The notes under the pieces are model-generated. The model saw nothing but the letters and a program-made list of their open reading frames with translations. It had not been told where the DNA came from and searched no databases. Both the position numbers and the translations under genes were made by a program. DNA of 64,000 bases from Brachycybe producta (taxonomy: Eukaryota > Arthropoda > Diplopoda > Playtdesmida > Andrognathidae), in assembly GCA_036925085.1 (NCBI GenBank), contig JAUPFP010000080.1:248001-312000 (forward strand), written 5' to 3'. This document shows, in pieces, positions 10,988 through 55,548 of this stretch; position 1 is the stretch's first letter; each line of letters starts with the position of its first letter.

Positions 10988-11324
10988 CTAAGCAATATGT
11001 CACTTTATTTATGTTTTTAGAAACGAACCTACCTTTTCATTTATTCTAAAATAAAATCACCCTCAATATCAGGAATAAGTTTTAGGAAGTTCATTTTTCT
11101 AATTCATTCATGGGTGGCAAATTAGTGTCCGGTGTATTGTCACAAACTCAAACATTGTCGACATCAATGAACACAAACCTTTTATTATTTATTTCGATCC
11201 TAATGTATCTCCCCCCCCCCCCCCGGCCACATTTCCTTCTCATTTTTGAATTGAATCGCCAATTCGGACGAACCAGCAACAGAGAGAGAGACATATAGGA
11301 GAAAACATCCAACTAAAAATAAAC
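10988..11324. other. Intergenic, upstream of the first galaxin-like gene
   Basis: It contains a poly(C) tract (11210-11224) and a short GA run just before the transcription unit at 11325. No obvious TATA box is placed convincingly. Probable promoter/5' UTR of the first galaxin-like gene. Confidence 0.4.
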
Positions 11325-13271
11325 ATGACTTCTTTTAATTTTTGCTTCATTTTTAAATTGTTATTTGTTCTTGTTATGAAGACAACTTGGATTCAAGGTA
11401 GTAAATTAATAATATATATTTCGGATTATTTTCTTGTAACTTATTTTATTGAAATTCATAAAAAAAATGTGTCGATATTATAAGGTTTAGAATTATACGA
11501 CAGCAGCACACAAATATGCTGTCTCGGAAAAGTTCACCAAGCACCAGATGCCACCGAAGAGGACAGCGACTGTTGTGGTGATACTCTGTATGATGCTAAA
11601 CAATACATATGTTGCTACAATGAAGTCTTACCTAGACCGTTAACAGGATCGGCATATTGTTGTGGGAATCAAGTCTACACGGATGATACTCCCGGTATTT
11701 GCTGCGATGATGTCCTTGTAGATATGCAGGCAGACCTGAGATTTAACAGCAGCAGTCTTCAAGAAACAACTAATGAGAGAATTGCAACTTCCTGTTGCGG
11801 TCAAGATATCTATAATACTCAAACAGAAATGTGTTGTAAGAGTGGAGTCGTTCCGAGGCCGTATCCCAGTGCAGAGTGTTGCGAAGATGTCGTTTACGAT
11901 GGTCTCGTAGAAATCTGCTGCCTGGGAAAAATACACAAAACAAATGGCAAGAATTTTTTCTGTTGTGATACCGAAGCTTACGATGCTATCACGAGTCTGT
12001 GCTGCAATGGAGAAATCCATTCAAAACCAGATAACAGATTGATAACCGATGAGGAAGGAAGTAAGAGTAGTGGTGTTGTCACATGTTGTGGTACCGAAAT
12101 GATGGATGTCGAAAATGATATCTGTTGTGAAGATCAAGTAATAACCATTAGTAATAACAATGCGTCCGAATGTTGCGGCACATCTTCGTACGATCCAGCC
12201 ACGCAGCTATGCTGTAATGGAGTTCCGCAAACCTTTACCACTTACGACACAGATGCAAGTATATCCGAAACAGAGGTGCCTGGATACAAAACAGCATGCT
12301 GTAGTTCTCAGATTTACTATATTGACAAAGAGGTGATATTATAAATCATAAATAATAATCTTGTATTTTTCTAAAATGTTCAATAATAATCTTATTACAT
12401 TATTTAAAAATGACAGATGAAGCCAACGTTTCTGCCGTTTTCCGCCATTCTTAGGGCACTAACAATAAAAAATACAATCAATGGGATTCTATTTACATCA
12501 ATATATTTTTAACTTTTAGGTCTTTGGCACATAGACCAATTTTTAACCACTTTTCGAGTCGCAGGTGGTTGAGCTGTGGTTGTCATGTATTTTCTTTGGA
12601 AAGACTCAAAGTGGTCGGTTTTTAACGATAACCCGACTTCATTTTGCAGTCAAAAAGTAGTCTTTGTGCCACGGACCTAAATTTTCTCAAAACTGGGGAG
12701 GAGTTCATCTATGGAGCCACCTTAAAAATACACTGTCAGACAAAATTTGTCGTTTTTGACAATTTGTAATACAAAAGTTATGGTTTTAATCTTTTAATAA
12801 GATTATTATTAAAATTATTATTATTTAATTAATCACGAAAATTACAAATTCTTTATATTTTAATATTTTATTACCGATTTTTATTACCGGTACCTCAACT
12901 TATGAAAGGTGTGCTGCAATGGAGTCGTTCACCAACTGGATTTAATACCGAAAAACAAACCCATCATCTGTTGTGGTAGTGACCTTTTGATAAACACAGA
13001 CTGGGACATGTGTTGCGGCGAGAGAACTGTCACGAAACGGACTCAAAACACACAATGCTGCGGTTCGAATACTTACGAAACGGACCGTCAAATCTGTTGT
13101 AATGGAGGATTGGTTCGAACCAAAGGTTCGGCAACTGAACTTTGCTGTGGAGACATTGTCTTTGATTACAGCAAACAGATTTGTTGCTTTGAAGACGGTT
13201 TTCGAGTGTTAGCAATGGATGAGAAAACCTCATCATGCTGTGCAAAACCTAGCACAATGTCTAAAACTTAA
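11325..13271 (+). CDS. Galaxin-like secreted di-cysteine repeat protein 1
   Basis: Three exons: 11325-11397 (phase 1), 11485-12332, 12909-13271; 427 aa. The first exon is a hydrophobic signal peptide (MTSFNFCFIFKLLFVLVMKT). The rest is 24 di-cysteine motifs spaced about 10-14 residues apart, alternating the forms ICC(N/L/K)G and (E/D)CCG..Y, the hallmark of galaxins. Galaxin was described in coral skeletal matrix; related proteins occur in squid and other invertebrates, so the family name does not by itself prove biomineralisation. Disulphide-rich and extracellular by inference. It is the longest of the cluster that needs no alternative exons and lies first in it. The intron at 12333-12908 carries a family-E repeat. 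Confidence 0.9.
12520..12685. mobile_element. Palindromic repeat family E copy (GGCACA-type MITE)
   Basis: Inverted ends of the type TTGGCACA(T/C)AGACCA and AAGTAGTCTTTGTGCCA flank a body with ACTTCATTTTGCAGTC. Sister copies are at about 18.0, 24.3, 25.8, 29.9, 35.7 and 63.4 kb. It lies within the second intron of galaxin-like gene 1. Confidence 0.7.
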
Positions 13272-27600: not shown

Positions 27601-28725
27601 TTCGTAGCTTGTTTTCTTCAAAATTGAAGATTTTATTAAATGTTTGTTATTCTTATTGAAATCTCAAGTCTGTAATAGCTTTACAATTATATTTTAAAAT
27701 CTATTTATATTTCACTATCTATTATCTATCGATCTATTATCTAAGAAAAACTTTATAGTTTTACATAATTTTATTATTTTATATTTTACATAATTTATAC
27801 TTCAAAATGACATAATGACTCTTTATCAATAAAAGACATTTTATTTTGAAAAATGTCAAATATTCTTTCATTTTTTTTTCCCAATGGTGCAATTGGAAAA
27901 TCATTCATGGAGTTTTATTTTTACGTAAAATTAGTTTTTTTTTGTGGATTTTTTAATTGTTAAACTACAGAAACGCATTTAAGATGGTTTATGAGCAGCT
28001 CAAGAGAAACTAGAAACTGTTTCAGGAATCAGAAGCTAGAAAGGCAACTCAATCACTTAATCAAGGATATTTTCATGTCGATATCTGTCAAAATAACCTT
28101 ATGTTCACAAAATGTTTAAAAATAAAATGAATTGTCTACACTGTACTTAAAGTTGAGCCATTTTCAAACTCACATAGAAAGCTTGCTGTATTTTAAATAA
28201 TATCAACATGAAAATACCACCCTTCTAGATCCTAAAACACTTTCTAGATTTTTCGCCCCTGAAAGACAGAAATAATTGTGAGGCGTTTACATCACATTAA
28301 AACCACTTTAAGGGGAGAAAATCACACATGCTGAAAAAAATCTTATTGGATTTCATTTTGCAAGGCATTTACCCAGAAGCGCCATACATTATATTTTTAG
28401 TGTAAAGAACACAAAATTTATTTCTATTATCTGGTAGTTTTTCAGCGTATGTGATCTTTTCCTCACTGTTTATCATAATTTCTTGCACCTTTTTGTCACA
28501 ATACGCAGGGTCGGCCTTACGGGTTCTATCTCTCCACTCCGATTTTGTGCCAAACTCTCAAAGACCCCACATGCCTCCTATCCCGTTTTACCACCATGTC
28601 TCTCTGACTTGTTTAAGCCCATTTTAACCCCCATCTTATCAGAAATATAATTTACCAGTAACGTAGCTACTGAACATGAAGACCAATGCCAAAATGACCA
28701 TCTTGATAGATGAAGACAACAACAT
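24682..28725 (-). CDS. Galaxin-like secreted di-cysteine repeat protein 5 (inverted copy)
   Basis: On the minus strand in three exons: 28725-28656 (signal peptide, MVILALVFMFSSYVTG, phase 1), 26654-26350 and 25371-24682; 354 aa. Eighteen di-cysteine motifs. The exon junction was placed so the repeat spacing is kept: ...FSCCDTT | IITNRQSCCNG... gives 12 residues between pairs, like the rest. The composition is Asn/Gln/Pro-rich (GQSTYNLNTQLCCNG), closest in style to the 33-42 kb gene rather than to genes 1-4. Initiation could be at 28725 or at the second ATG eight codons in. An acceptor just upstream of the ATG (CTTTTTTCTAG, 28736 region) implies a further non-coding 5' exon. Confidence 0.87.
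25560..25945. mobile_element. Half copy of family A followed by a family-E copy
   Basis: GTGTTTTAAAAACTAGAAAA with GATATTTTTATGTTGATATT is a left half of family A. From about 25757 a family-E element follows (TTGGTGCACAGGCAATTTTT to AAAAGTCGTCTGTGTGCTAA). Both are in the second intron of gene 5. Confidence 0.55.
26655..28655. other. First intron of galaxin-like gene 5 and its repeats
   Basis: About 2 kb, AT-rich. At 27122-27300 there is a hairpin element with CAACACGATTTTTAATTTAA inverted as TTAAAATTCTTGTTGAAATT and CTGACATTTCGA inverted as TCGAAACGTCAG. It is followed to about 27470 by a GGGGCACATCGGG/CGGCTGCCCCAA element. A full family-A copy is at about 27985-28315. No coding sequence seen. 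Confidence 0.6.
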
Positions 28726-33330: not shown

Positions 33331-34816
33331 ATGAGTTCATCGAAGACATGGCTGTCAATTTTACTGCTGGTCATCATCACGATGATCACAGTTTCGTCGG
33401 CTTACGAACAACTGTATTCGAATGAAGAAAGCCAACTTGTTCATGATTTCAATGAAGATGAAATTCTGGAACGAACAAAAAGACGTAAGTATAAACATTA
33501 TATAGATTAATCATCATTGTAGAGAGTGGCGTAACTAGCTTTTTGGCGCCGGAAGCATAATTCTTGAGTGCCCTCAGTAATTCATTATTAAGCCTAGAAA
33601 TAAATTTTTAGTGGAAGAGTCTGGTTAGATGCTAGAATTCAGAGGTTAAAGTAGCCTATGGCGCAGACTTATTTAGATTGGAACGCCAGTCTCAAACCAA
33701 GTTCTTTTTAAGGTGGCGCAATAGATATTTATTTTTTTTTCTCCATGTTTTTCCTATGTTTTTGAGAAAATTTGGACGCAAACACGTCAAGCAAACTTTT
33801 TTTTAGAAACAACATTAGAAAAAAATTCAAATTGTTTTCAAAACTAGAATGGTAGAAGATTACGCTAAAAGTTTTTTCATTTCAATATCTTAAAAAATAA
33901 ATGATCCATTTTTAGGTTTTTTCATTAACATTTTATCAAAAATTATTTTCGCCTTTTGTCAAACTGTTATAAAAAGTTTATTTTGAAAGATATAATCATT
34001 AAAAAAACTTAACAGTATCACCAACCATTCTAGTTTCTAAAACACTTTGAATTTTTTTGTAATGTTTCTCCTGAAAAACGTTCACTTAAAAAACATCTAA
34101 ACTTGAAAACTCGAAAACTCTAAAAATGCATTTTTTTCTGGTTGCTTTTCTAATTACTATATAATTATTAATTATTTAATAAGGAAACAGTGAAATTTTA
34201 AAAATTAAAATTTAAATCTGAAAGCACTCTTAGTGGAGGTTAGCGCTGAGAGCAAACTGCTCCCCATAGCTACGTCACTAATTATAGACATAGGTGATCA
34301 AATAAATCTTATTAATGTGGATTCAGATGCTGGAATGTATTCGAAACGAGACGAATTAGCTCAACCTGCGAATCAAAACGTCGAAGAGCACAGCATCGAA
34401 AAAAGACAGATCTGCGGTTATGGTAGTACAGAGCTTTGTTGTGGCAACAAAGTTTACCGTGGAAATTTTCCCTATAATGCTGTATGTTGTGGAAACGATT
34501 ACATCGACTCGAATACAGCCCTTTGCTGCAATAATGTTGTAAAATTAATCAACGGCAACCAATATCAAATGGCTTGTTGTGGATCCAGTGTTTATAATAC
34601 TTCAAGTCAGGTAATAAAAACAACACCTGAAATTATATAGAATTACATCATTTTATATGAATATTTAAAAATTTCTTCTCATTAATTACTTTTTAGATCT
34701 GTTGCAATAATAAGATTTACACTCAAACCGGTAACTTGGGATGCTGTGGTAGTTCTTCGTACAATCCGACAACACAGATATGTTGTAATGGAAATGTATC
34801 TCAAATCAACGGACAG
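33331..34816 (+). CDS. Galaxin-like gene 6, constant 5' exons
   Basis: Exons 33331-33484 (phase 1), 34288-34610 and 34697-34816; 199 aa before the variable end. It has a signal peptide (SILLLVIITMITVSSA), then an acidic pro-region with dibasic sites RTKRR, YSKRD and IEKRQ, and seven di-cysteine motifs from ELCCGNK onward. The IEKR|QICG junction is a good candidate prohormone-type cleavage just before the repeats. The exon-2 start is uncertain: 34233, 34272 and 34288 are all in phase. I prefer 34288 because the DNA before it looks like the end of a transposon. Exon 3 ends ...ICCNGNVSQINGQ at a GC donor (CAG|GCGAGT). Reading through instead gives a non-cysteine tail ending at 35023, which does not resemble the family. 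Confidence 0.75.
33521..34287. mobile_element. Nested elements filling intron 1 of galaxin-like gene 6
   Basis: The left end AGAGTGGCGTAACTAGC and the right end, inverted AATTAGTGACGTAGCTATG, look like one outer TIR element. Within it lies a family-A-related copy (about 33780-34120; TTTTCAAAACTAGAATGGTA, CCATTCTAGTTTCTAAAACA) of the same subtype as 56.1 and 58.5 kb. Confidence 0.5.
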
Positions 34817-35004
34817 GCGAGTGATGCATGCATGCATGATTGCGATAAAACAGCATGGAACAAGCACGCTGATACCTATTACATAGCCTCCTATATTAGT
34901 TTAGTAGTGTACGAGGCTATGCCTATATTATTTTTAATACTTTATACCTTTCAGTTAAATTTCATGTCCTTTTTCGTAACAATGAACCTGAAAATTAGGT
35001 TAAG

Positions 35005-36340
35005 ATGTTTTAAGTACAGATGATTTTCGAACTCTGGTTATTCTGCAGTTTCAGAAGCAACACTGAGGAGATATTGAAAGTGTGTTAGAAACTAGAAACA
35101 TAGCTGAATCACTTATGGAAATATTCATGTTGACTTCTTTCAAGATAAACATTTTATAAACAAAAATGAACAAAAACACCATTTGCTTAAAGTTGGATCA
35201 TCTTCAAAGCTTATTCTAAAAGATGTAATCATAAAAATACCCTTAAGTGATCGAGCTATCCTTCTAGTTTCTAAAACACTTTCAAGTTTATCTTAATTTA
35301 TCTTCTGAGTGACAGAATAACTAAGAGTGGGAGGAGGGACCGTTTACACTTTAATACCACCTTAATTCTACTTAAGATTATGGCAAAAAAAAGGTTGCAG
35401 GCATTAATATGTATCAGAGTGCTTGTCAAATTGACAACGAACACGATTTGTTTGCCAGTCATCCAATCAAACTATATAACATTAACTTTCATTACTTGTC
35501 CCCTCAAGAATACGGGTTGGATTATTTCAATGAGCAGCAAAATCAGTATCCTTATCCGATAGGTTGAATTTTAAGAATTCCTCAGATCCGTCCCTTTTTG
35601 TTTCTTGCTGTACAACTTACAGAAACGTGCTCCTCACTTAAATAATCCAACCAGTAATCTTGACTAATGCCCTTGGCACATGAAACACTTTTGCAAAATG
35701 AAGTTCCAGTGTATTGCAATGTATTTCTTATGAAAAGATTCGAAGTGGTCCGTTTTTTTTTTTTTTGCAAAAACCTGACTTCATTTTGCAGCCAAAATAG
35801 ACCACCAAAAGTGGTCTGTGTGTTCCAACCCTAAAAGAATATTACATATCGTGTGAAATGCCCCAAAAAAAAGTAGGCCTGCAGGCTTATTAGTTAGTCA
35901 TGACTCATTACAACAACATATTAATTCAGCACAATAACCCAAATGTTTACAGTCCTTCGTATATGATTATTTTTAGAAATCAAAATCAATATTTTGTATA
36001 AACTGAACAAGCGTATAGGCGCCTACTTTTCGAAACCTTAAGGGGTGCTCAGCAGCCTTGATTAGGACTCCCACTAAAAGTGGAGCCTATCGTTTTTTAT
36101 ACTAAACCATATGCTTTGACAATAGGATGAGGTGTTGCTTGTTAGAGGCTATAATGTGTTAACCACAGTGTTTTATGTGGTTCGCTTAACCTTTTATATT
36201 GTGTAAAATTGAAATATTTTCAAAGAATGCTGAGCACCACCTTTAGAAAGTTTCATTGGGTGCTTGAGGACCACAGCCTCATGCAGTCTAATGGTTCTAA
36301 ATGAACCAGTATCCCTACATGAGCAACAATTTTCCAAAAG
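35005..36340. other. Intron of gene 6 between constant exons and terminal-exon array
   Basis: It contains a family-A copy (about 35005-35365), a family-E copy (about 35665-35835, CCTTGGCACATGAAACACTT to AAGTGGTCTGTGTGTTCC) and a small TIR element (about 36020-36265, GGGGTGCTCAGCAGCC inverted as GAATGCTGAGCACCACC). No exon seen. Confidence 0.55.
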
Positions 36341-36349
36341 CAAAACACC

Positions 36350-36970
36350 TAAACGTAATAGTCACTCAACTATGTAGCAACCAAGTTATAGATTACACTC
36401 AAAGGTTGTGTTGCAAAGGAAGGCGTCAGCCGAGAATCAAAATAACTACATTCGATTCCTCAGCACAAATGTGATGTAATGGTACCGTTCTCATCAACCC
36501 AGAAAATTATTCGTCATGCTGTGCGATGAAACTTGTCAATGTCAAACTTAACACGTTTGTTGTAATTGCAATGGGAAAACTTCACCAAAACCAGTGAATC
36601 GTGCCATCGAACAGAGGTTACTGATGCCACATTGACGAAGCTTACAATTCATACAGCGATTACGTTGAAATTTTTCATCCCGTATTTTGACTGTTGTGGC
36701 ACAATTTTGTTGCAATAACAAACAGCACAACAACACGATGCCAGCGTTGCCGTGTCGCACATTTATCCAACTATATGGCAACTAATAACCAGACATGATG
36801 CATTGGTAGGTTAATCAATGGCCCTTACCAATTATGTTGCGGGAAAACAAATGTGTGCTGGATGTGACATCGCACAGGCCACAGCCATAACAGCGTCCGA
36901 GTCAACAAATGCTGCTATGCAATGGAGTCATCCGGCCGCGTTGTTTGACAAATAATACAACATACAAAAA
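36350..36970 (+). pseudogene. Decayed galaxin-like terminal exon (relic 1)
   Basis: Translated piecewise it matches the intact terminal exons: VTQLCSNQVIDYTQRLCCKG, then FDSSAQM followed by an in-frame TGA where the first cysteine should be, then CNGTV, SSCCAMKL, and later an island reading FDCCGTILL. Several frame changes are needed. It looks like an old inactive cassette upstream of the first intact one. The DNA from 36,970 to 37,394 holds its 3' tail and the approach to the next acceptor. Confidence 0.75.
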
Positions 36971-37394
36971 AGGACACCAAGAAAGATTCCACTGCAGCAT
37001 ATCGAAACACCTAAATAGATAAACACAGTCTCATAAAACATGCTTACAATTTGATTGTTGCAATTTGTTTAGTTGCACTCAACTAAAACATCGAACCACT
37101 TCAATTTGTAGGATCACGTTAAGTTTCGAGTTTTCACAAAACAAGTCAAACGGAACCTGGATCAAACACTTTGGAACTACTATACCATACTGAAATATCC
37201 AGAAAATAACTAACTGACAATCACATATGACTTACAGCCGATTATAAGTTTTGTTCAAACAAACATTACAGAAAAACCACTTAGTACAGAAGTAGGCCTA
37301 GAATCCAAATATTTAACAAATAAGAGTGGTTCCTATAGCTTATATGTAAGTTCAATACTTAATCTTAATTCTGTATAATTATACACGTTAACAG

Positions 37395-38141
37395 ATATTA
37401 TCCTGTTGTCAAAATATCGCCTACCAGTTGAATGACTATAACTGTATTAACAACGGCAATCTCAAAGAAAAATCCAACAACGCAAGCCTCAGTCAAGTCT
37501 GTGGAAGTGAAACCATAAATTACGATGAACAAGTATGTTGCCAAGGAACTCCTCAGCCGAGAACCAGTAACATGACTCTGTGTTGCGGATCAATAACTAT
37601 CGATTCCTCCTCGCAAATGTGTTGCAACGGTACTGTTTACGACAATCCAGGCAATGTTTCCTCATGTTGCCAGAAGCAACTCTATAATACCAATGAACAG
37701 GTCTGTTGCAATGGAAAAATCATACCTCGGCCAGTAAACAGTGTTGGCGCCAACAGTTACTGCTACCCCCCATTGCCAAGGCCTGGATTTATGAGTCTAA
37801 TTAGGTACAGTCCGTATTTTACCTGTTGCGGCACCCAACTGTTAACCAACTACACAACCCAAATTTGTTGCACTGATTCACTGTACAACATTGAACCATA
37901 TAGCTATTCTCAAAGCTGTTGCGGATCAAATCTTTATAACACCAGTACACAGGGATGTTGTGGATCAAACCTTTATAACATCATTACACAGACCTGCTGC
38001 AATAACCAAATAATACCCAATATCCCTAATCAGTTATGCTGTGGGACAGCACTCTACGATCTCAACCAGCAAGTGTGCTGCAATGAAACGATATACAATC
38101 ATAACAGTGTGCCAGCCAACAAATGTTGCACTTCCTATTGA
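37395..38141 (+). CDS. Galaxin-like gene 6, terminal exon a
   Basis: Open from acceptor GTTAACAG (ending 37394) in phase 0 to TGA at 38139-38141; 248 codons. It begins ILSCCQNIAYQLNDYNC and carries 14 di-cysteine motifs. Conserved landmarks with exons b and c are NYDEQVCCQGTPQPRT, RPVNSVG.(N/S)SYC, LLTNYTTQICC and HNSVPANKCC. No signal peptide precedes it, so it must be joined to upstream exons. Joined to 33331-34816 it gives 447 aa. One 13-residue repeat is freshly duplicated (37917-37955 and 37956-37994). AATAAA at 38259-38264. Confidence 0.75.
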   Translation: MLSCCQNIAYQLNDYNCINNGNLKEKSNNASLSQVCGSETINYDEQVCCQGTPQPRTSNMTLCCGSITIDSSSQMCCNGTVYDNPGNVSSCCQKQLYNTNEQVCCNGKIIPRPVNSVGANSYCYPPLPRPGFMSLIRYSPYFTCCGTQLLTNYTTQICCTDSLYNIEPYSYSQSCCGSNLYNTSTQGCCGSNLYNIITQTCCNNQIIPNIPNQLCCGTALYDLNQQVCCNETIYNHNSVPANKCCTSY

Positions 38142-38299
38142 TTGAGGACTCGCAAATATCAGTTCCCAACAATTACTATAGTCCTATGTCGATTTAAAAT
38201 GTCTCATAAAAATAAGCAATAGCTTAAAACATGTTTATATTTGCTTCTATGCACACATAATAAAATATATGAAAATAATTATTTCTTCTGTCTATGAAA

Positions 38300-38875
38300 T
38301 GCTTAAACGGAAACGTTGTTACCTTTATCAGGAACCAATGTCAGCAGTTACTGCTGACCACTATTCCAAGCAGCCATAGTAGGTATATGAAACAGGAACA
38401 GTCCGTTTTTAAAACCTATTTGGTACCCAATTGCTAACTACACCAACTCAAATGTGCTGTAAAAGTAAACTGACACTGCAACCTCGCCAATTTCAACTAA
38501 CAAGTTTGCTATAAATGGGAAAAGTTGACCAAAACCAGTGAACAGTGTCAGCAACACAGGTTACTGTTACCACTGTGATAGAGCTTGCATACGAAAATTA
38601 CGGCCCATATTTTGACTGTTGTGGCAGAATGTTGTTGCAAAAACAAACCAAAAAATGTTGATCCAAATAACTATTGACAGAGTTACCCTGTCTCGTATAT
38701 ATATCCAACTAATAAACCAAACGTGTTGCATTGATAGTTCAATCAATGGTCCTTACAAATTGCAACATTCAATGCATGCAACAGCGTTCAATCCAACAAA
38801 TGCTGCTATGAAAAGTTGGAAATTGGGCATTGGGATCATCCAGCCCTTAGTTTGAAAAATACAACAACATAGTGA
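38300..38875 (+). pseudogene. Decayed galaxin-like terminal exon fragments (relics 2 and 3)
   Basis: Two degraded pieces lie in tandem. About 38300-38490 resembles the middle of an intact cassette (AACGGAAACGTTGTTACC, then AACTACACCAACTCAAATGT). About 38505-38875 matches the middle to end (AACCAGTGAACAGTGTCAGC, CCATATTTTGACTGTTGTGG, CCAACAAATGCTGCTATG). Frameshifts and lost cysteine pairs rule out function. The second piece parallels relic 1 and the first parallels the relic at 40.2 kb. Confidence 0.75.
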
Positions 38876-39319
38876 AAACGTCGGCAAGAAAGATTCCAGT
38901 GCAACACATCGGAACACATAAACAGATCAACACAGTCTCTCATAACATGCTAACATTTGCTTCTATTTGCACTCTACTTATACACTCAAAACATAAAACA
39001 TCTTTTGGAAAAATAATGGTATATGACAAGTTTCCACAAGAAGTAGCAAAAGAAACATGGATAACTTTACAACTACAATATCATAATGATATACATGCAT
39101 AAAACCTACAATAACCAGCACCGTCCAGGAAATAAATGACAAAAACTAGTCGTAATCCCTTGTGAGTTACAGCCATGTACGTGTTTTGTTCAAACAAACA
39201 TTACAGAAAAACCACTCAGTAGAAAAGTATGCCTAGAATCCAAATATTTAACAAATAGTGGTTCCTATAGTTTATGTAAGTAGAATATTTAATCTTAATG
39301 TTGTATAATTATGTAACAG

Positions 39320-40021
39320 ATCTTATCCTGTTGTCAAAATATCGCCTACCAGTTGAATGACTATAACTGTATTAACGGCAATCTCCAAGAGAAACCCAAC
39401 AACGCAAGCCTCAGCCAAGTCTGTGGAAGTGAAACCATAAATTACGATGAACAAGTATGTTGCCAAGGAACTCCTCAGCCAAGAACCAGTGACATGACTC
39501 TGTGTTGCGGATCAATAACTATCGATTCCTCCTCGCAACTGTGTTGCAACGGTACTGTTTACAACAACCCAGGAAATGCTTCCTCGTGTTGCCAGAAGCA
39601 ACTATATAATACCAATGAACAGGTCTGTTGCAATGGAAACGTCTTATCTCGGCCAGTAAACAGCGTTGGCGACAACAGTTACTGCAACCCCCAAATATTT
39701 TTTGGTTCAAATAGTGGTGGGGTATTTCAACCTTACAGCCCATATTTTACTTGTTGTGGCACCCAACTGTTAACCAACTACACAACTCAAATTTGTTGCA
39801 CCGATACACTGTACAACATTGTACCATATAGCTATTCTCAAAGTTGTTGTGGCTCAAACCTTTACAACAGCAGTACACAGACCTGCTGCGCTAACGAAAT
39901 AATATTAGACGACCCTAATCAGTTATGTTGTGGCACAGATCCCTACGATCTCAATGAGCAAGTGTGCTGCAACGAAACTATATACAGTCATAACAGTGTG
40001 CCAGCAAACACATGTTGCTGA
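39320..40021 (+). CDS. Galaxin-like gene 6, terminal exon b
   Basis: Acceptor TGTAACAG ends at 39319; phase 0 to TGA at 40019-40021; 233 codons and 13 di-cysteine motifs. It begins ILSCCQNIAYQLNDYNC, identical to exon a over this stretch, and differs mainly in the variable loop after SYC (NPQIFFGSNSGGVFQ) and in lacking the duplicated unit. It ends VPANTCC without a tail. AATAAA at 40147-40152. With the constant exons it gives 432 aa. Confidence 0.75.
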   Translation: MLSCCQNIAYQLNDYNCINGNLQEKPNNASLSQVCGSETINYDEQVCCQGTPQPRTSDMTLCCGSITIDSSSQLCCNGTVYNNPGNASSCCQKQLYNTNEQVCCNGNVLSRPVNSVGDNSYCNPQIFFGSNSGGVFQPYSPYFTCCGTQLLTNYTTQICCTDTLYNIVPYSYSQSCCGSNLYNSSTQTCCANEIILDDPNQLCCGTDPYDLNEQVCCNETIYSHNSVPANTCC

Positions 40022-40189
40022 AAACATCAGCAAGAGGACACGCACACATCAATTCGTAACAATATACTTATATGTTGATTATTAATTTCTCATAAGAAAT
40101 AAGCAATAGCTTATAAACATGTTTTTATTTGCTTCTAAGCACAAATAATAAAATTATATGAAAATAAAAATTATTTCTTCTGTTCTTAA

Positions 40190-40440
40190 CGTGGTAAAAC
40201 TCAGGAAGCTAAAACGGAAACGTTGTTACCTTTATCAGGAAACAGTGTCAGTGTCACTAGTTACTACTAACAACTATTCACAGCAGCCATAGTAAGTATA
40301 CGAAACAAGAACAGTCCGTTTTTAAAACCTGTTTGGTGTCCAACTACTAACTAAAATGTGCTGCAACAGTAAACTGACACTGTGCTATCTCGATACAAAT
40401 GGCTATTGCAGTGTTTCAGCTCAAGCATTTAAAATAACAA
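40190..40440 (+). pseudogene. Decayed galaxin-like terminal exon fragment (relic 4)
   Basis: AAACGGAAACGTTGTTACCT through AACAGTCCGTTTTTAAAACC and AAAATGTGCTGCAACAGTAA is a sister of relic 2, displaced by about 1.91 kb. No open frame. The remaining DNA to 41,842 shows no exon that I can support. Confidence 0.7.
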
Positions 40441-41842
40441 TGGATCCACATTACTCAATAAATTGTAGTACAACAGTTAGAAATATGACCACTAAGTTGT
40501 ACCAGAGTTGAAAGAAATAGAAACCGTTCTCCTGCCAGCGCCATAACTAGTTAATTTTGCACCTGAGGCAAGAGATTAGAAATTGTTGCAACTCAACAAT
40601 AGAGATTTGCAATGAATAGAAAAACATCCTGTTACAAGTTTGGAGTCTTACTATAATAAATTAATAATATTATTGGGTTGTGCCCATAAAATGTTATTGA
40701 TTAACTTGACTTGTATGCAAATTAGTGAAAATTCTAATTAGTTACGAGTGCCACACATAAAAGAGTGAAACGAGATCTCTCTCCTCTCTATTTGAACGCC
40801 GCGGTACAATGTCGTGGTAACATTCTTAATTAATGTTCTGCAATTTGTTGAGTAACATCAATCTCCTTTAATACTAACCAGAGTTATTGGATGTTGAGGA
40901 TTTATAACACTGCTGCTACTTTGACAAAATAATTAATGGCACTGAATAATGGCGTTATGCTAAACATGTCTACTATCGCAATGCACAAGTGCGTCGTTAC
41001 GGAACATTATGCAGTCGACAGGTGTCGCACTTAGCATATTCCGCGAAATGATTAAATGTTAATTATTACAGTTAATCCCAATTAAAATGCTTAATGAAAA
41101 TGTCAACAAGGATGTTGTTTTGCACACACACAGCACATCACAAATGTAACCAAACAATTCAACGCATAAATTCATAACTCTGCCTCACAAATCCAATAGA
41201 AGCTTTCCTGACAACACGACAAACATTCAAGAACTTTTACGGGCTCATATCTAGAAACTAGATCCATAAGGCATCTTAGTCATCAAGACATACAGCACTA
41301 GTAAACCTGTCCTACACTTTGCATAAAACAAAAAAAGAACGGAGGCATTGTAACAATCCCATAATTCAAGGATTCGTTTGAGTCGGATTTCATTCTTATG
41401 AAAGTAAACTTATGGAAACACAATGGCACTTTATAATCCAGACTAGATTTGGTTTTTCTCTTCGTTTTTCATGTGTTTTTTTGGAACTTTTCTCCATATT
41501 TTTCAAGGTTTCCAGATGGAAAACATTAATTTGGTTTGTATGTACATTATCACCCCTTCGTCTATTAATAAGAGTAGAATGTATGTTATTCTGTGATTCT
41601 TTGGTGTTTGTAATCTTTACTTGTACCTCACTAATCACTAAGTTTGGACATCCCTGGTATATAATACAAATACTAAAGACTAATGAATATTCCTATAAAA
41701 TTATGCCAGTAAGCAAACTTCAACATACTGTATGTCATAAGTAATATGTATGCTCATATAACTAGGAGTGGAAAAAAAATATCTTCAATTCATTCCAGTA
41801 AAATATCTAATCATTAATCTCTATTATTGTTTCCATTCACAG

Positions 41843-42577
41843 ATACTATCGTGTTGTGGAAGCGTTGCATATAGGCTGAACAGCCATCTCTGCACAAAGA
41901 ACGGAATTCAAGCAAAGCCTAAAAACAAAACAGTAACTCAACTCTGCGGAAACCAAACTATAAATTACAAAACACAAATATGTTGTCAAGGAAAAGCTCA
42001 GCCGAGAACCAATACGATGACTCTGTGCTGTGGAACAACCACTTTCGACTCATCCAAGCAAATGTGCTGCAACGGTACCATTAATTCCAATCCAACAAAT
42101 GTTTCGTCGTGCTGCGTGAAGAAACTCTACAATACGAACACACAGGTTTGCTGCAACGGAAATGTTTTAACTCGACCAGTGAACAGCGTTGGCGACTCCA
42201 GTTATTGTTACCCTCCACTCCTAGATACCGCAGCGAAGGCAGAAAGTTACAGTCCATATTTCGCTTGTTGCGGCAACCAATTGATAACGAACTACACAAC
42301 TCAAATATGTTGCAACAACAAACTATACAATCGTGATCCGACTGACTATTACCAAAATTGTTGTGGATCAAACCTTTATACATCTAATAACCAGACCTGC
42401 TGCGTTGACAGAATAATCAATGGTTCTAACAAACCATGTTGTGGCAACGAAACTTACAATCTCAATAGCAAAATCTGTTGCAACGGAACCATTTACGGGC
42501 ATAATAGTGTACCAGCCAATAAATGTTGTAATAGCAACACGAACCTACCCGTGCCTCTTCCTTTTATAAGATCGTAA
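41843..42577 (+). CDS. Galaxin-like gene 6, terminal exon c
   Basis: Acceptor TCCATTCACAG ends at 41842; phase 0 to TAA at 42575-42577; 244 codons, 13 di-cysteine motifs. It begins ILSCCGSVAYRLNSHLC and ends CCNSNTNLPVPLPFIRS, a proline-containing tail absent from exon b. It is more diverged from a and b than they are from each other, so it is an older copy outside the duplication. AATAAA at 42578-42583 overlaps the end of the coding region. Alternative reading: an upstream ATG (41768) would prefix a hydrophobic stretch that could act as a weak signal peptide, making c an independent intronless gene; the conserved acceptor argues against that. Confidence 0.72.
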   Translation: MLSCCGSVAYRLNSHLCTKNGIQAKPKNKTVTQLCGNQTINYKTQICCQGKAQPRTNTMTLCCGTTTFDSSKQMCCNGTINSNPTNVSSCCVKKLYNTNTQVCCNGNVLTRPVNSVGDSSYCYPPLLDTAAKAESYSPYFACCGNQLITNYTTQICCNNKLYNRDPTDYYQNCCGSNLYTSNNQTCCVDRIINGSNKPCCGNETYNLNSKICCNGTIYGHNSVPANKCCNSNTNLPVPLPFIRS

Positions 42578-42755
42578 AATAAATGCTAAAAGAGATTTCA
42601 GATAAATGTACTCAAATTAGAATCAATTCAGAATTTACTTGTATTCCTTGTGTTACGAGCAAATTAAAATAATTTTGAGAAAAAAATCGATCGCTCGTAA
42701 CAATAAAGTTGAAATACGGAATATTACCATTGTTGTTGTTTTTGTAACTTGTAGC

Positions 42756-43255
42756 AAATTTTACTAGCATTAGCCCATTAGTATTTGCAGAGCGCATGTG
42801 CATTGCCATCTTATCGTTTTATATAGGAAAGTGATTGCAGATTTGCGTTAGCAGCGCCATCTATTGATCACCAATAGAAACTGTCGATGAGAAGTTCACG
42901 TAGGGGCCCTAGGAAGTCGCCGAAAATTAACAAAATTAAATTAAAATTAATAAAATAAAATTAATTTGGCGTTTTTTTGCGTGCAGGTCTCAATATATTG
43001 ACGTACTATGTCAATATATTGAGATTGTTAGGTTAGGTATAGTTACCTAACCAAACCTAACCTAACCTAAGTCAATAAATTGAGATACTAAGTCCAAAGT
43101 CAACATATTGGAGCAGCATTCTTTCAATTTATTTTTTCCCACGTCCTATAAGGGGCACCGTAGTTTTCACTTGCCACACTTTCCTATATAAAACGATAAG
43201 ATGGCACTGCGCATGCGCTCTGCAAATACTAATGGGCTAATGCTAGTCAAATTTT
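42756..43255. mobile_element. Foldback element with ~78-bp inverted arms
   Basis: The left arm 42756-42833 (CTAGCATTAGCCCATTAGTA, TTTGCAGAGCGCATG, TTATATAGGAAAGTG) is nearly perfectly inverted at 43177-43255. The spacer contains further palindromes: TCAATATATTGA copies and TTAGGTTAGG with inverted CCTAACCTAACC. No coding capacity. Confidence 0.85.
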
Positions 43256-44647: not shown

Positions 44648-46432
44648 TTAAGTTCGAACCGCCATAAGATTAGTCTGAACAAGATGAAAACCATCGAGGA
44701 TCACTTGAAATTCATCTGTAGATGAAGACGCTTGAATCTCTTCAATGATATTGTTTGCCATTTTCACCAGTTCCTCTTTAATCTCTTCAACAGTTCCGGT
44801 GAGCATGTGATCGTTAAACACGTTCGCAATCGTGTTGGATTGATCACGAGCGCGTTCCTCGGCTTCGGTGTTCGTTTCGATATAGATCATATTGGCATCG
44901 TTTGCATCCAATCGTACCATTTGCATGTTTTCACCAATCACGCGAGCATGTTTGCACATGTCGTGACATGCTTTATTTTCAACACATAAGCAATTTAGCG
45001 CATGCATGCAAAGGCCACAATCGGAACATCTAATATCGCATCTGTAGGTGATATCCTCGACAACCAGATCGAAGGTACGACCGGATTCGTCAATAGCAGT
45101 AGTGGTGGTGGTGCCGTTGCCTGTCACCTCGAGAATATTATTACCATCGTACAACTTCCGGACGTTTTCGATAGTTTTGTCAATGTTAACATTAACAATC
45201 TTCGTCTTCTTACTCGCTAAAACGGATTTCTCGTCATCGGGTAATCGTAGTCGTTCGATGTCTTTCGAATGTCCCGCGTGAGTACGTTGGTAAACGACGA
45301 CGATTTCGTTCGGTTTTCTCGTGACTTGCATTCCGGCAGGACATCGATTTCCTATTTTATTCGTACCGGTTTTTTTTAAACGTCTCTTGTTCGAACCACG
45401 AGGTTTGTATTTTCCAGATCGGTGACAGCTGTAATACGTCACCAAAACACCATTTGCTTTCTTAATACTTCCTTTAATCGTCACAAAGCTTGACATATCT
45501 CGAATCTCCATTTCTTTCTTGTAGTTGAGAAATTCTTCGTTGGTTTCGAACGTCTTCGTTTCCCTTTCCAAATGGATTTCGTGTTTTTCGGTCAAATGTG
45601 CATATAACAACTTACTCGTTGTTAATGCTTCCGAACAAACTGCACATCTAAACCTCTTTATGACAGCGTGTCCATGTTTTTCTTTCTGATGTTTCTTTAA
45701 ATTTGCAGTCTGAGTAAAAGCACGACCACAGTCCGTACAAATACAAGGTTTTTCTTTCGGTTGCACGACTATTTTATCTTTATGATACTGCTTGTTGTGT
45801 CTTGATAAATTTGAACTACTATAATATGAAACTTTACAATCGATACAAAAGTATCTGCTTTGTTTTTTCGTTAATTGTTCGCTTACGTTAGGGCTTTGCT
45901 CGTTGGGTCCCTTGACTTCTTTTACGTCCTTAGAAGATGCAACAGGATCACTTTTATCAGCAGCAGCAGCAGCCTTAGCCTCCGCAGCAGCCTTAGCCTC
46001 AGCAGCAACCTTAGCCTTAGCCGCAGCAGCAGCCTTAGCCTTAGCGGCCAACTTTCGTTTTGAAACTCTTAAATTGGTGGTGGTCACCTTTGGTTTCTCT
46101 TTATGATAGTTATTCTTGTGTCTTGTTAAAGTAGAAGTGGTAGCAAATGAAATATTACATTCCGTACAAGGATACTTTGGTCTTGAAATAGAAGACGACG
46201 ATGACAACTTTTTCTTTGGAACTTTTAAACTGGTGGCCGTCGCTAATTTGTCTCTATGAAAGTTTCTCTTGTGTCTTGATAAAGTAGACGGAATGGCGAA
46301 CCAAATATCACAATCAGCACAAAAATACTTCCGTTTGGAGTCAGGTGTTGTCTCCTTTTCACTCTGTTCTATAGCTTCTATTATTTTTTCTATAGTTTCT
46401 GCCATTTTTAACGTTTCAAATAGTTCACGCAA
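44648..46432 (-). CDS. C2H2 zinc-finger protein with FAR1/MULE-like module
   Basis: Single exon, 594 aa. C2H2 fingers are at about residues 36-59, 87-110, 194-217, 230-253 and 261-284. Between fingers 2 and 3 lies an Ala/Lys helical stretch (about 128-160). From about 315 a FAR1-like zinc module follows (VTYYSCHRSG ... IGNRCPAGMQV ... YQRTHAGH), the type found at the N-terminus of Mutator-like transposases. Near residue 475 is a Cys-rich knot (CSDCGLCMHALNCLC ... CKH), SWIM-like. The DDE transposase core expected between the two is absent. Probably a DNA-binding nuclear protein derived from, or captured by, a MULE-type transposon. A shorter start at the second ATG (10th codon) is possible. 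The intact long frame argues for function. Confidence 0.85.
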   Translation of the reverse strand: MRELFETLKMAETIEKIIEAIEQSEKETTPDSKRKYFCADCDIWFAIPSTLSRHKRNFHRDKLATATSLKVPKKKLSSSSSISRPKYPCTECNISFATTSTLTRHKNNYHKEKPKVTTTNLRVSKRKLAAKAKAAAAAKAKVAAEAKAAAEAKAAAAADKSDPVASSKDVKEVKGPNEQSPNVSEQLTKKQSRYFCIDCKVSYYSSSNLSRHNKQYHKDKIVVQPKEKPCICTDCGRAFTQTANLKKHQKEKHGHAVIKRFRCAVCSEALTTSKLLYAHLTEKHEIHLERETKTFETNEEFLNYKKEMEIRDMSSFVTIKGSIKKANGVLVTYYSCHRSGKYKPRGSNKRRLKKTGTNKIGNRCPAGMQVTRKPNEIVVVYQRTHAGHSKDIERLRLPDDEKSVLASKKTKIVNVNIDKTIENVRKLYDGNNILEVTGNGTTTTTAIDESGRTFDLVVEDITYRCDIRCSDCGLCMHALNCLCVENKACHDMCKHARVIGENMQMVRLDANDANMIYIETNTEAEERARDQSNTIANVFNDHMLTGTVEEIKEELVKMANNIIEEIQASSSTDEFQVILDGFHLVQTNLMAVRT

Positions 46433-47724
46433 AACTGGACGACGCGTAAAGGAAAATCACACTGTGTTTGCTCCCTTTCTTTTCTTCTCTTAGTTCTCTA
46501 TGGCGCAAAATAACCAGCGTCTGTCCACAAGTGAATAGTAGACAATAATACGGAGCCCGAAAAAGGACATTTTTATTTTTTTATTTTGTAGGTCAATGCT
46601 AACCTGTCGTAATCAGTTACTACTACCCGTAGTAACGTAATTCGTTGTAACAAATTATTTCATTCGTTGCAACAACTTAGGAATTCGTTGCAATGGATTA
46701 GAATTGACAAAAAAATAAAACTGTCTTTTCCCGGGCTCCATATCTTTCTCTAGTCGATAGACACTCGAGGAAAACGACATTGGGGTGAATCTCGTACAAG
46801 TATGGGAAGCAGTTTTACTTTTTATCCACGTTTTACTGGATTTTACGAATTCGATTTTTATTTCGAGCATCCAGTAAAATAAGGGTAAAACCTAAAATAG
46901 CTTGTGATACATACCCTTTGTTGTGAATCTCGATGAATCTTATTGAACCTCGTATGTGATTTTCTTCTATGTCGTCCCCCTTGCAGACGCTAGTCGAGAA
47001 GCAAAGTCTACAGAGAAAAAAATAAAAGTAAACCTTAAAGGAGCGTCCACACCTAACAAACGCATGTATTGTGGACGCCTTGATGAACAAGCACAAACGA
47101 ACATCAAGAATGGCCAACCCCATTTTGTCGGTACCTCAAAGGAAAATGGTTGTTTGCGTCCGTACCTGTATAGTGCAGAATATATAGTATGGTGTACATC
47201 TGAAAGTAACCCTTATTTAGTATTCGTCTGGATGAAATATTATGCGGATTAAAGCTTAATTACAGTAGTCGTACGCACTCATGGGCGCTTGTTCGATAGG
47301 TATGGCCGCGCCTTAAGATATAGATACGGGTAGCTCAACTTAATTTTAATGAAAACCTCATAGGTGAATGAGCTTCGCCTGTCTTCAAATTTTCTCATAA
47401 AGAAAGCCTTGCATTTCTTTTTGCATTCCTTTACATTCCTAGTGAAGTCTGTAAGACAAAAATGTTTTCAATTTCTGGGTGCATTGCAATTTAGAGACGA
47501 TTCAGACTGACTGACTAACATGAAGTTAAGCTACCTGTATGTCTATGTCTTGGGATAAAAGGTTACAGAGGTTAGAAATTCTAGAAGTGGTCTTCGCCTT
47601 TCTGAAATATAAAATATTTAAATATTTAAAAAAGGAAACAATAATTAGAATCAATGGTGATAGTTAATCAATTAATTTTCTTTTGATTAACAAATTTAAA
47701 ACAAAACAAAACAAGCAAGTTCTA
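46433..47724. other. Intergenic, upstream of the zinc-finger gene
   Basis: No supported gene. It includes a GTTGCAACAA-type local repeat (46620-46700) and a possible hairpin around 47040-47160 (GCGTCCACACC and later GTTTGCGTCCG). Short open frames on both strands lack family features. Confidence 0.5.
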
Positions 47725-47796
47725 TGCCGTGACCAGGATTCGAACCTGGGTTATTGCGGCCACAACGCAAGGTACTAACCACTATACGATCACGGC
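47725..47796 (-). tRNA. tRNA-His (GTG anticodon)
   Basis: The minus strand folds as a complete cloverleaf: acceptor GCCGTGA pairs fully with TCACGGC, anticodon stem TTGCG/CGCAA with loop TTGTGGC (anticodon GTG), T stem CCAGG/CCTGG with loop TTCGAAT, discriminator A at 47725. It closely matches animal cytosolic tRNA-His. There is no intron and no encoded CCA. The universal G at -1 is added after transcription; the genome has A there. Confidence 0.97.
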
Positions 47797-51121: not shown

Positions 51122-51745
51122 TGTTATTACCGGTGTAGGGTGGTATGGGGACAGAGTTCAAACAAACAACCCCTTGATATAATTGTATTGTATCGTATAG
51201 AGTGGCTTTTCTGCATAACAGTTTATTAGCAATGTGTTTCCTACCAATCACATAATATAATTATCTGGTAGCCATAGCTGTTTACATTTTTCTTATATTT
51301 GATTGGACAACACGACCAATAGCCAAGCTCACTCTAAGACGTAAAATAAAAGAAATCTGATGTGGCATGACGTTCAATTACTGAAACTTTTGACGGCAAT
51401 TGGGCGTCCATATGGCGTGTTTGCTTTTTTTAGAACACATATGAACCGTGATACGGCGCCATCTTTGATTTATTATTACGCATCAATTGAAGGAATAAAA
51501 TTGCCAAGTAGGCCACGCACTTGTGCTTCAATTTAATAAAATAGAAAAGCTCCTCGTGTGATTATGCTGGTTTTCTATTCTGATATTTTGCCCCTTTACC
51601 TTTAGCCGACGTTTAACTTTTTAGTCGCCAGCTAGGTTTGTTAAAAAGTTTTTCGTCGTTCGTTGAACGTTTTTTGGTTGCTGTTTATACAGTTTTGACA
51701 AGTATTTTATAATATCTAATTGTTTTGAGTGATAATTTGATAAAC

Positions 51746-55548
<3,803 letters not shown>

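Follow-up and report, generated by a model that had tools for sequence, protein, structure and literature searches.

A galaxin-like gene of the millipede Brachycybe producta (Diplopoda, Andrognathidae) appears to combine one secretory leader with three alternative last exons. It lies on the forward strand of a 64,000-nucleotide stretch of contig JAUPFP010000080.1 (assembly GCA_036925085.1, positions 248,001 to 312,000), hereafter the window, which corresponds to C80:248001-312000 in the 295-megabase (Mb), 442-contig assembly used for our genome searches. Three leader exons (33331-34816) encode a signal peptide, a propeptide and seven di-cysteines, and are followed by three intact, homologous terminal exons, here called cassettes 1, 2 and 3, interspersed with decayed copies. 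The sequence is best explained by a single leader that serves three alternative terminal exons, with a probability that we put at about 0.7: splice phase, repeat register, the lack of a signal-peptide exon at our scan threshold ahead of the cassettes, the lack of an earlier canonical polyadenylation (poly(A)) signal and purifying selection all agree.

Three homologous terminal exons

Cassette 1 (37395-38141, AACAG acceptor) encodes 248 amino acids with 14 di-cysteines, cassette 2 (39320-40021) 233 amino acids with 13 and cassette 3 (41843-42577) 244 amino acids with 13. All three lie on the forward strand, are open from an acceptor in phase 0 and score above the cut-off of the Pfam profile Galaxin_repeat, PF24748 (E=5.8e-33, 2.5e-34 and 2.3e-35, respectively). 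Each opens with ILSCC and carries VPAN(K/T)CC at or near its end, beyond which cassette 1 adds TSY and cassette 3 a further 15 residues. In the genome search, cassettes 2 and 3 match cassette 1 at 83% (E=2e-115) and 62% (E=3.7e-81) identity, and the next-best match after the cassettes falls to E=6.5e-14 at 27%. Every cassette is followed by its own AATAAA, at 38259-38264 for cassette 1, at 40147 and 40163 for cassette 2, and at 42578 and 42702 for cassette 3. The initial annotation, made by inspection of the sequence, had described these exon positions, phases, shared starts and ends and poly(A) signals correctly, as well as the want of a convincing signal peptide in the cassettes; ahead of them, our scan finds no signal-peptide exon at its threshold of 2.3. 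An in-frame stop stands three bases upstream of the exon in cassettes 1 and 2, and the open frame of cassette 3 begins at 41762 with no methionine ahead of the exon. With neither a start codon nor a signal peptide of their own, all three cassettes therefore require an upstream exon.

Two local features may be recorded here: a 13-residue internal duplication (CCGSNLYN...) at 37917-37994, found in cassette 1 only, and an inverted repeat directly after cassette 3 (42756-42833 and 43177-43254, 96% over 78 bases), which resembles the ends of a small mobile element.

A leader with no recognised ending of its own

Leader exon 1 (33331-33484) encodes the signal peptide and the start of the propeptide, and ends in phase 1 at GAC/GTAAGT; the signal peptide is a strong one, with a score of 3.48 in a hydropathy scan. 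Exon 2 (34327-34610) supplies the rest of the propeptide, with KR sites, and di-cysteines 1-4, ending in phase 0 at CAG/GTAATA. The joined translation is open, and nearby alternative AG acceptors for exon 2 likewise leave the frame open. Exon 3 (34697-34816) begins ICC, holds three di-cysteines and ends in phase 0 at CCNGNVSQINGQ. The upstream signal peptide and seven repeats of the initial annotation are thus present, and in the joined translation the dibasic KR occurs at three places in the propeptide. Stretches of exons 2 and 3 exceed the cut-off when the genome is searched with PF24748; exon 1 has a single match in the genome and exon 2 a single full-identity match. Dispersed repeats of about 300 bases, which recur throughout the window in numerous copies of either orientation, occupy 33772-34096 and 34978-35367 inside the leader introns.

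The donor of exon 3 (34814-34822, CAG/GCGAGT) is a phase-0 GC site. Scored with a generic donor matrix that leaves the first two bases of the intron out of account, its context ranks first among all 3,744 GC dinucleotides of the window, both strands included, and none of the 7,067 GT sites in the window scores as high. Donors that can be placed score lower, at 3.0 in leader exons 1 and 2 and 2.5 for the inner intron of the neighbouring galaxin gene A, and those of the signal-peptide exons of ten galaxin genes range from -1.0 to 6.7. In general, GC donors account for less than 1% of all donors, keep closer to the consensus and are over-represented among alternatively spliced genes (PMC2490688).

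Exon 3 was considered as the terminal exon of the leader gene and rejected. Its readthrough frame stops at 35023, the phase-0 GT sites in the readthrough score below -5, and the gene strand contains no AATAAA or ATTAAA between 34613 and the signal of cassette 1 at 38259, which agrees with the earlier remark that the leader has no fitting terminal exon of its own. Random sequence of like dinucleotide content has a mean of 8.6 such signals over this distance, and none of 1,000 random sequences had zero. We do not read the gap as selection; it means only that the leader transcript has no earlier canonical end.

Joining the leader to the cassettes

The exon 3 donor and the three cassette acceptors all join in phase 0, as the joined translations confirm, and the repeat register is kept across the junction: the join creates CCNG-13 residues-CC, the same spacing as the internal CCNG-13-CC inside each cassette. 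The leader alone has 7 di-cysteines; the joined proteins have 434, 419 and 430 residues with 21, 20 and 20 di-cysteines for cassettes 1, 2 and 3, separated by gaps of 11-15 residues apart from two per protein of 37-42. The predicted isoforms would thus differ in repeat number, and also in the loop at 37771-37805 and its counterparts, as had been proposed. From the exon 3 donor, the cassettes lie 2.6, 4.5 and 7.0 kilobases (kb) away.

On this evidence, the leader is very likely joined to cassette 1, and cassettes 2 and 3 are probably alternative last exons of the same gene. The initial annotation had gone as far as one promoter and leader serving interchangeable C-terminal halves. Phase, register and selection favour that proposal, which remains a prediction from sequence and is tempered by a weak first-exon candidate ahead of cassette 3.

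Other galaxin genes and the rival of separate genes

The strongest rival, which we nevertheless consider unlikely, holds that only cassette 1 is spliced to the leader and that cassettes 2 and 3 end short genes of their own with unrecognised first exons. Tandem galaxin genes are indeed the rule in the window. Five further ones, all equipped with a short signal-peptide exon of their own that ends in phase 1, start at 11325, 14113, 17520 and 22024 on the forward strand (genes A, B, C and D) and at 28725 on the reverse strand (gene E, in which a second intron was looked for and none found). Excerpts of the calcarin study describe tandem galaxin genes in Sycon and Acropora as well (PMC12419799). 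Elsewhere in the genome, galaxin genes occur at least at C80:329k, on C7, on C8 and, twice, on C15. Among the matches listed for cassettes 1 and 2, every clear galaxin exon belongs to a gene with its own signal-peptide exon, except the cassettes and their decayed copies, for which there is only that of the leader.

Splice phase argues against separate genes. The intron between the signal-peptide exon and the first galaxin exon is in phase 1 in 10/10 fully joined genes, six in the window and four outside it (A-F, C80:329k, C7, C8 and one on C15), whereas the cassette acceptors are in phase 0 in 3/3, matching the internal galaxin exons at 12909 (VCC) and 34697 (ICC). The donors of these genes were first picked by hand and then taken as the best-scoring GT after the hydrophobic core with phase ignored, which again gave phase 1 in 10/10, the best site of the C8 gene falling inside its next exon. 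For an eleventh gene, the second on C15, the signal-peptide exon was not found.

The spacers ahead of the cassettes point the same way. At a threshold of 2.3, the hydropathy scan recovers the signal-peptide exons of 9 of the 11 galaxin genes, missing gene A (found by eye) and the second C15 gene, with occasional false matches such as those at 11110 and 29282. Upstream of cassettes 1, 2 and 3 it finds no signal-peptide exon at 2.3 or more, the best scores being 2.05, 2.15 and 2.29. Matches at 1.8 or more number 2, 1 and 1, where random sequence gives 0.63, 0.28 and 0.58. Ahead of cassette 2, the candidate (38947) corresponds to a broken frame in the first of two tandem duplication units (36529-38478 and 38480-40382, forward strand), and no leader exon is recognised within the unit. 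The candidate before cassette 3 (41583-41708, forward strand) favours the rival: it scores 2.29, just below the threshold, and ends at a phase-0 donor, CCA/GTAAGC (score 3.01), 134 bases before the cassette. It has a single match in the genome, and the neighbouring sequence at 41404-41550 is repetitive.

Purifying selection on the cassettes

If the gene ended at cassette 1, cassettes 2 and 3 could be untranslated relics, downstream duplicates that have not yet decayed, and the decayed copies interspersed among the cassettes make such a fate conceivable. The pattern of substitution makes it very improbable. The ratio of nonsynonymous to synonymous rates (dN/dS) is 0.34 between cassettes 1 and 2 and about 0.20 for either against cassette 3, a comparison in which synonymous change is large (dS 1.3). 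When changes are polarised by cassette 3, the branch to cassette 1 has 15.5 nonsynonymous changes among 30 (p=0.0009) and that to cassette 2 has 15.5 among 29 (p=0.002), against about 80% expected, so that the cassette 2 branch is by itself depleted in amino-acid changes. This test leaves out 16 unpolarisable differences (14.5 of them nonsynonymous) and columns gapped in any cassette, and is therefore tilted towards constraint; without polarisation, 50 of 83 changes between cassettes 1 and 2 are nonsynonymous, which still gives p=3e-5. These counts indicate that the cassette 1 and cassette 2 lineages are each under purifying selection.

The reading frames agree with this. Cassettes 2 and 3 differ from cassette 1 by 12% and 29% and keep uninterrupted frames of 233 and 244 codons, and no gap among the intact cassettes breaks the frame, compared with 2-8 frame-breaking gaps per decayed piece. 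Copies simulated under neutrality seldom keep an open frame: 11-25 per 1,000 do so at 11% change, 1-6 at 15% and 0-1 at 22%.

Trans-splicing of cassettes 2 and 3 from their own promoters to the leader would suit a common leader and homologous 3' exons that each have a poly(A) signal, and has a precedent in Drosophila mod(mdg4) (excerpts of PMC12692577), but we regard it as most improbable, since ordinary cis splicing over these short distances explains the layout.

Decay and exchange in the exon array

Three decayed cassettes lie on the forward strand. Decayed cassette A (36290-36918) retains 60-62% identity to the intact cassettes, with 6-8 frame-breaking gaps and 5-6 in-frame stops. Decayed cassette B survives as two pieces (38305-38480 and 38486-38820; 56-63% identity), with 2-3 and 5 frame-breaking gaps, respectively, and 2-3 in-frame stops each, and decayed cassette C as a fragment (40212-40390; 60-62% identity) with 3-4 frame-breaking gaps and 1 in-frame stop. 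Stop and gap counts vary with the intact reference chosen, and the gap counts omit one long alignment-end gap for the first B piece and for the C fragment.

The two tandem units of about 1.9 kb align by blastn at 73.9% over 2,063 columns. Each holds an intact cassette together with pieces of decayed ones, and both ends of the unit lie inside cassette-like sequence. Cassettes 1 and 3 are homologous from about 40 bases upstream of the acceptor onwards, and the acceptor was therefore copied along with the exon. An origin of the cassettes as retrocopies is rejected because the homology takes in the acceptor and these intronic bases, and a duplication created by the assembly is rejected because the units are only 74% alike and leader exons 1 and 2 are not repeated at full identity.

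Divergence between cassettes 1 and 2 is uneven, with dS 0.125 in the first 115 codons and 0.482 in the rest (p=0.0012, synonymous changes), and sliding identity between the units peaks at 97/100 at 37529-37628. The low dS of the first half fits an exchange of 5' halves between the two cassettes. With intact cassettes interspersed with decayed ones, the sequence indicates that the array evolves by birth and death. The initial annotation had spoken of a small cassette-type diversification system; the evidence carries that idea no further than three predicted isoforms, drawn from an array in which exon copies come and go.

About 50 bases upstream of the cassette acceptor, a block at 37272-37346 and its counterpart before cassette 2 share conserved ends, TTACAG resembling an acceptor and GTAAGT a donor. 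The block was considered as a coding mini-exon and rejected, as its lengths in units 1 and 2 differ by five bases when compared by eye.

Neighbouring features of the window

Beyond the galaxin genes, the window holds a DDX23-like helicase gene (51713-55548), six inspected donors of which score -2.6 to 3.1 against the generic consensus. The motif NAGGTRAGT is absent from both strands of the window. On the minus strand lie an uninterrupted frame of 602 amino acids with C2H2 zinc fingers (44648-46456) and a tRNA-His (GTG) at 47725-47796, on which ARAGORN and Rfam agree.

Discussion

Several observations weigh against a single leader with three endings and keep our confidence from being higher. 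GC donors are rare, and the scores that single out the exon 3 donor rest on generic frequencies, on which real donors of this genome score weakly. The GT donor of exon 2 is also in phase 0, so that exon 3 is skippable and an isoform without it is possible. That join would place 13 residues after a CCGS half where other CCGS halves have 11, except for the first, interrupted repeat of cassette 3, with 41. The phase contrast with other galaxin genes is weaker than it looks: the cassettes are mutual duplicates, their common phase 0 is one event and not three, and a Fisher p of 0.0045 (9/9 vs 0/3) overstates it. The opposite strand of the stretch before cassette 1 is also poor in poly(A) signals, with 2, and base composition may be the source of the scarcity on both strands. 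Identity between units 1 and 2 is 87% in coding sequence, 84% in the 3' flank, 78% in the upstream spacer and 75% in the decayed cassette, which leaves the 3' flanks of cassettes 1 and 2 nearly as alike as their coding sequences. The donor of the candidate first exon before cassette 3 scores on a par with several real ones in this genome. Finally, in excerpts of the calcarin study, Sycon Cal4, Cal6 and Cal2 are separate neighbouring genes (PMC12419799), whereas the present gene seems to use a single leader for three terminal exons.

The encoded proteins share the hallmarks of the galaxin family: a signal peptide, a dibasic site, tandem di-cysteines and a match to PF24748. Coral galaxins have the first two, and one of them has a second transcript that is presumed to be alternatively spliced (excerpts of PMC2726143). 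Calcarins, the spicule-matrix proteins of calcareous sponges, are expressed in particular sclerocyte types and stages and carry tandem di-cysteines 10-15 residues apart, 10-23 of them in Sycon; the same excerpts explain galaxin-like diversity in a calcareous sponge and in a coral by whole-gene duplication followed by changes in expression (PMC12419799).

Partial precedents for the gene layout are found outside the family. In human CAPZB, too, the alternative 3'-terminal exons are homologous and each has a poly(A) site, and Drosophila Ciboulot is named as a possible case only, 'if alternatively spliced' (excerpts of PMC3228551). Compared with these, each ending here makes up more than half of the protein, three intact copies stand with at least three decayed ones, and the copies have visibly exchanged sequence. 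Drosophila mod(mdg4) and lola also combine common 5' exons with alternative 3' exons, but they are trans-spliced, with more than 30 isoforms for mod(mdg4) (excerpts of PMC12692577 and PMC3228551), whereas the predicted endings here are three tandem duplicates. In Caenorhabditis elegans let-2, a GC donor stands beside an exon choice and is required for its regulation; there the use of exon 10 is regulated (excerpts of PMC2490688), whereas the present gene would choose among terminal exons. A limited literature search found no report of one galaxin leader with alternative terminal exons, and a galaxin gene with a terminal-exon array would be a new variation on known loci with homologous 3' exons.

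Exon anatomy, splice phases, homology, decay and selection are read from the sequence; the promoter, the splicing itself (above all to cassettes 2 and 3), its regulation and the function of the products are what we infer. A single promoter would drive a pre-mRNA spanning all cassettes, and the phase-0 GC donor of exon 3 would be spliced to any one of the three phase-0 acceptors, the ending being set by competition between recognition of a terminal exon and cleavage at proximal poly(A) sites. By slowing commitment, the GC donor may give transcription time to extend to the distal cassettes. Mature isoforms would share the propeptide and the first seven di-cysteines and have different last 13-14 di-cysteines, differing most in the loop around 37771-37805 and its counterparts. 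An extracellular or mineral-matrix function, like the way in which the ending is chosen, is suggested by analogy with the galaxin family. The array would have grown by duplication of an acceptor with its exon through unequal exchange, after which some copies decayed and others exchanged sequence. A fuller scenario is tentative and in our view doubtful as a whole: a birth-and-death array of terminal exons in which unequal exchange takes place inside cassettes, copies decay in place, first halves exchange while second halves diverge, and the GC donor acts as a slow step that lets cell types pick different endings.

Automatic annotation may miscount loci of this kind as several genes. Because intact and decayed copies lie side by side, the turnover of terminal exons can be tested directly here. 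Under the fuller scenario, isoform number would vary between species and perhaps between individuals. If the reading with one leader and three endings is true, galaxin diversification in this millipede would come from duplication of the last exon only, with variants held under one promoter and chosen at the RNA level.

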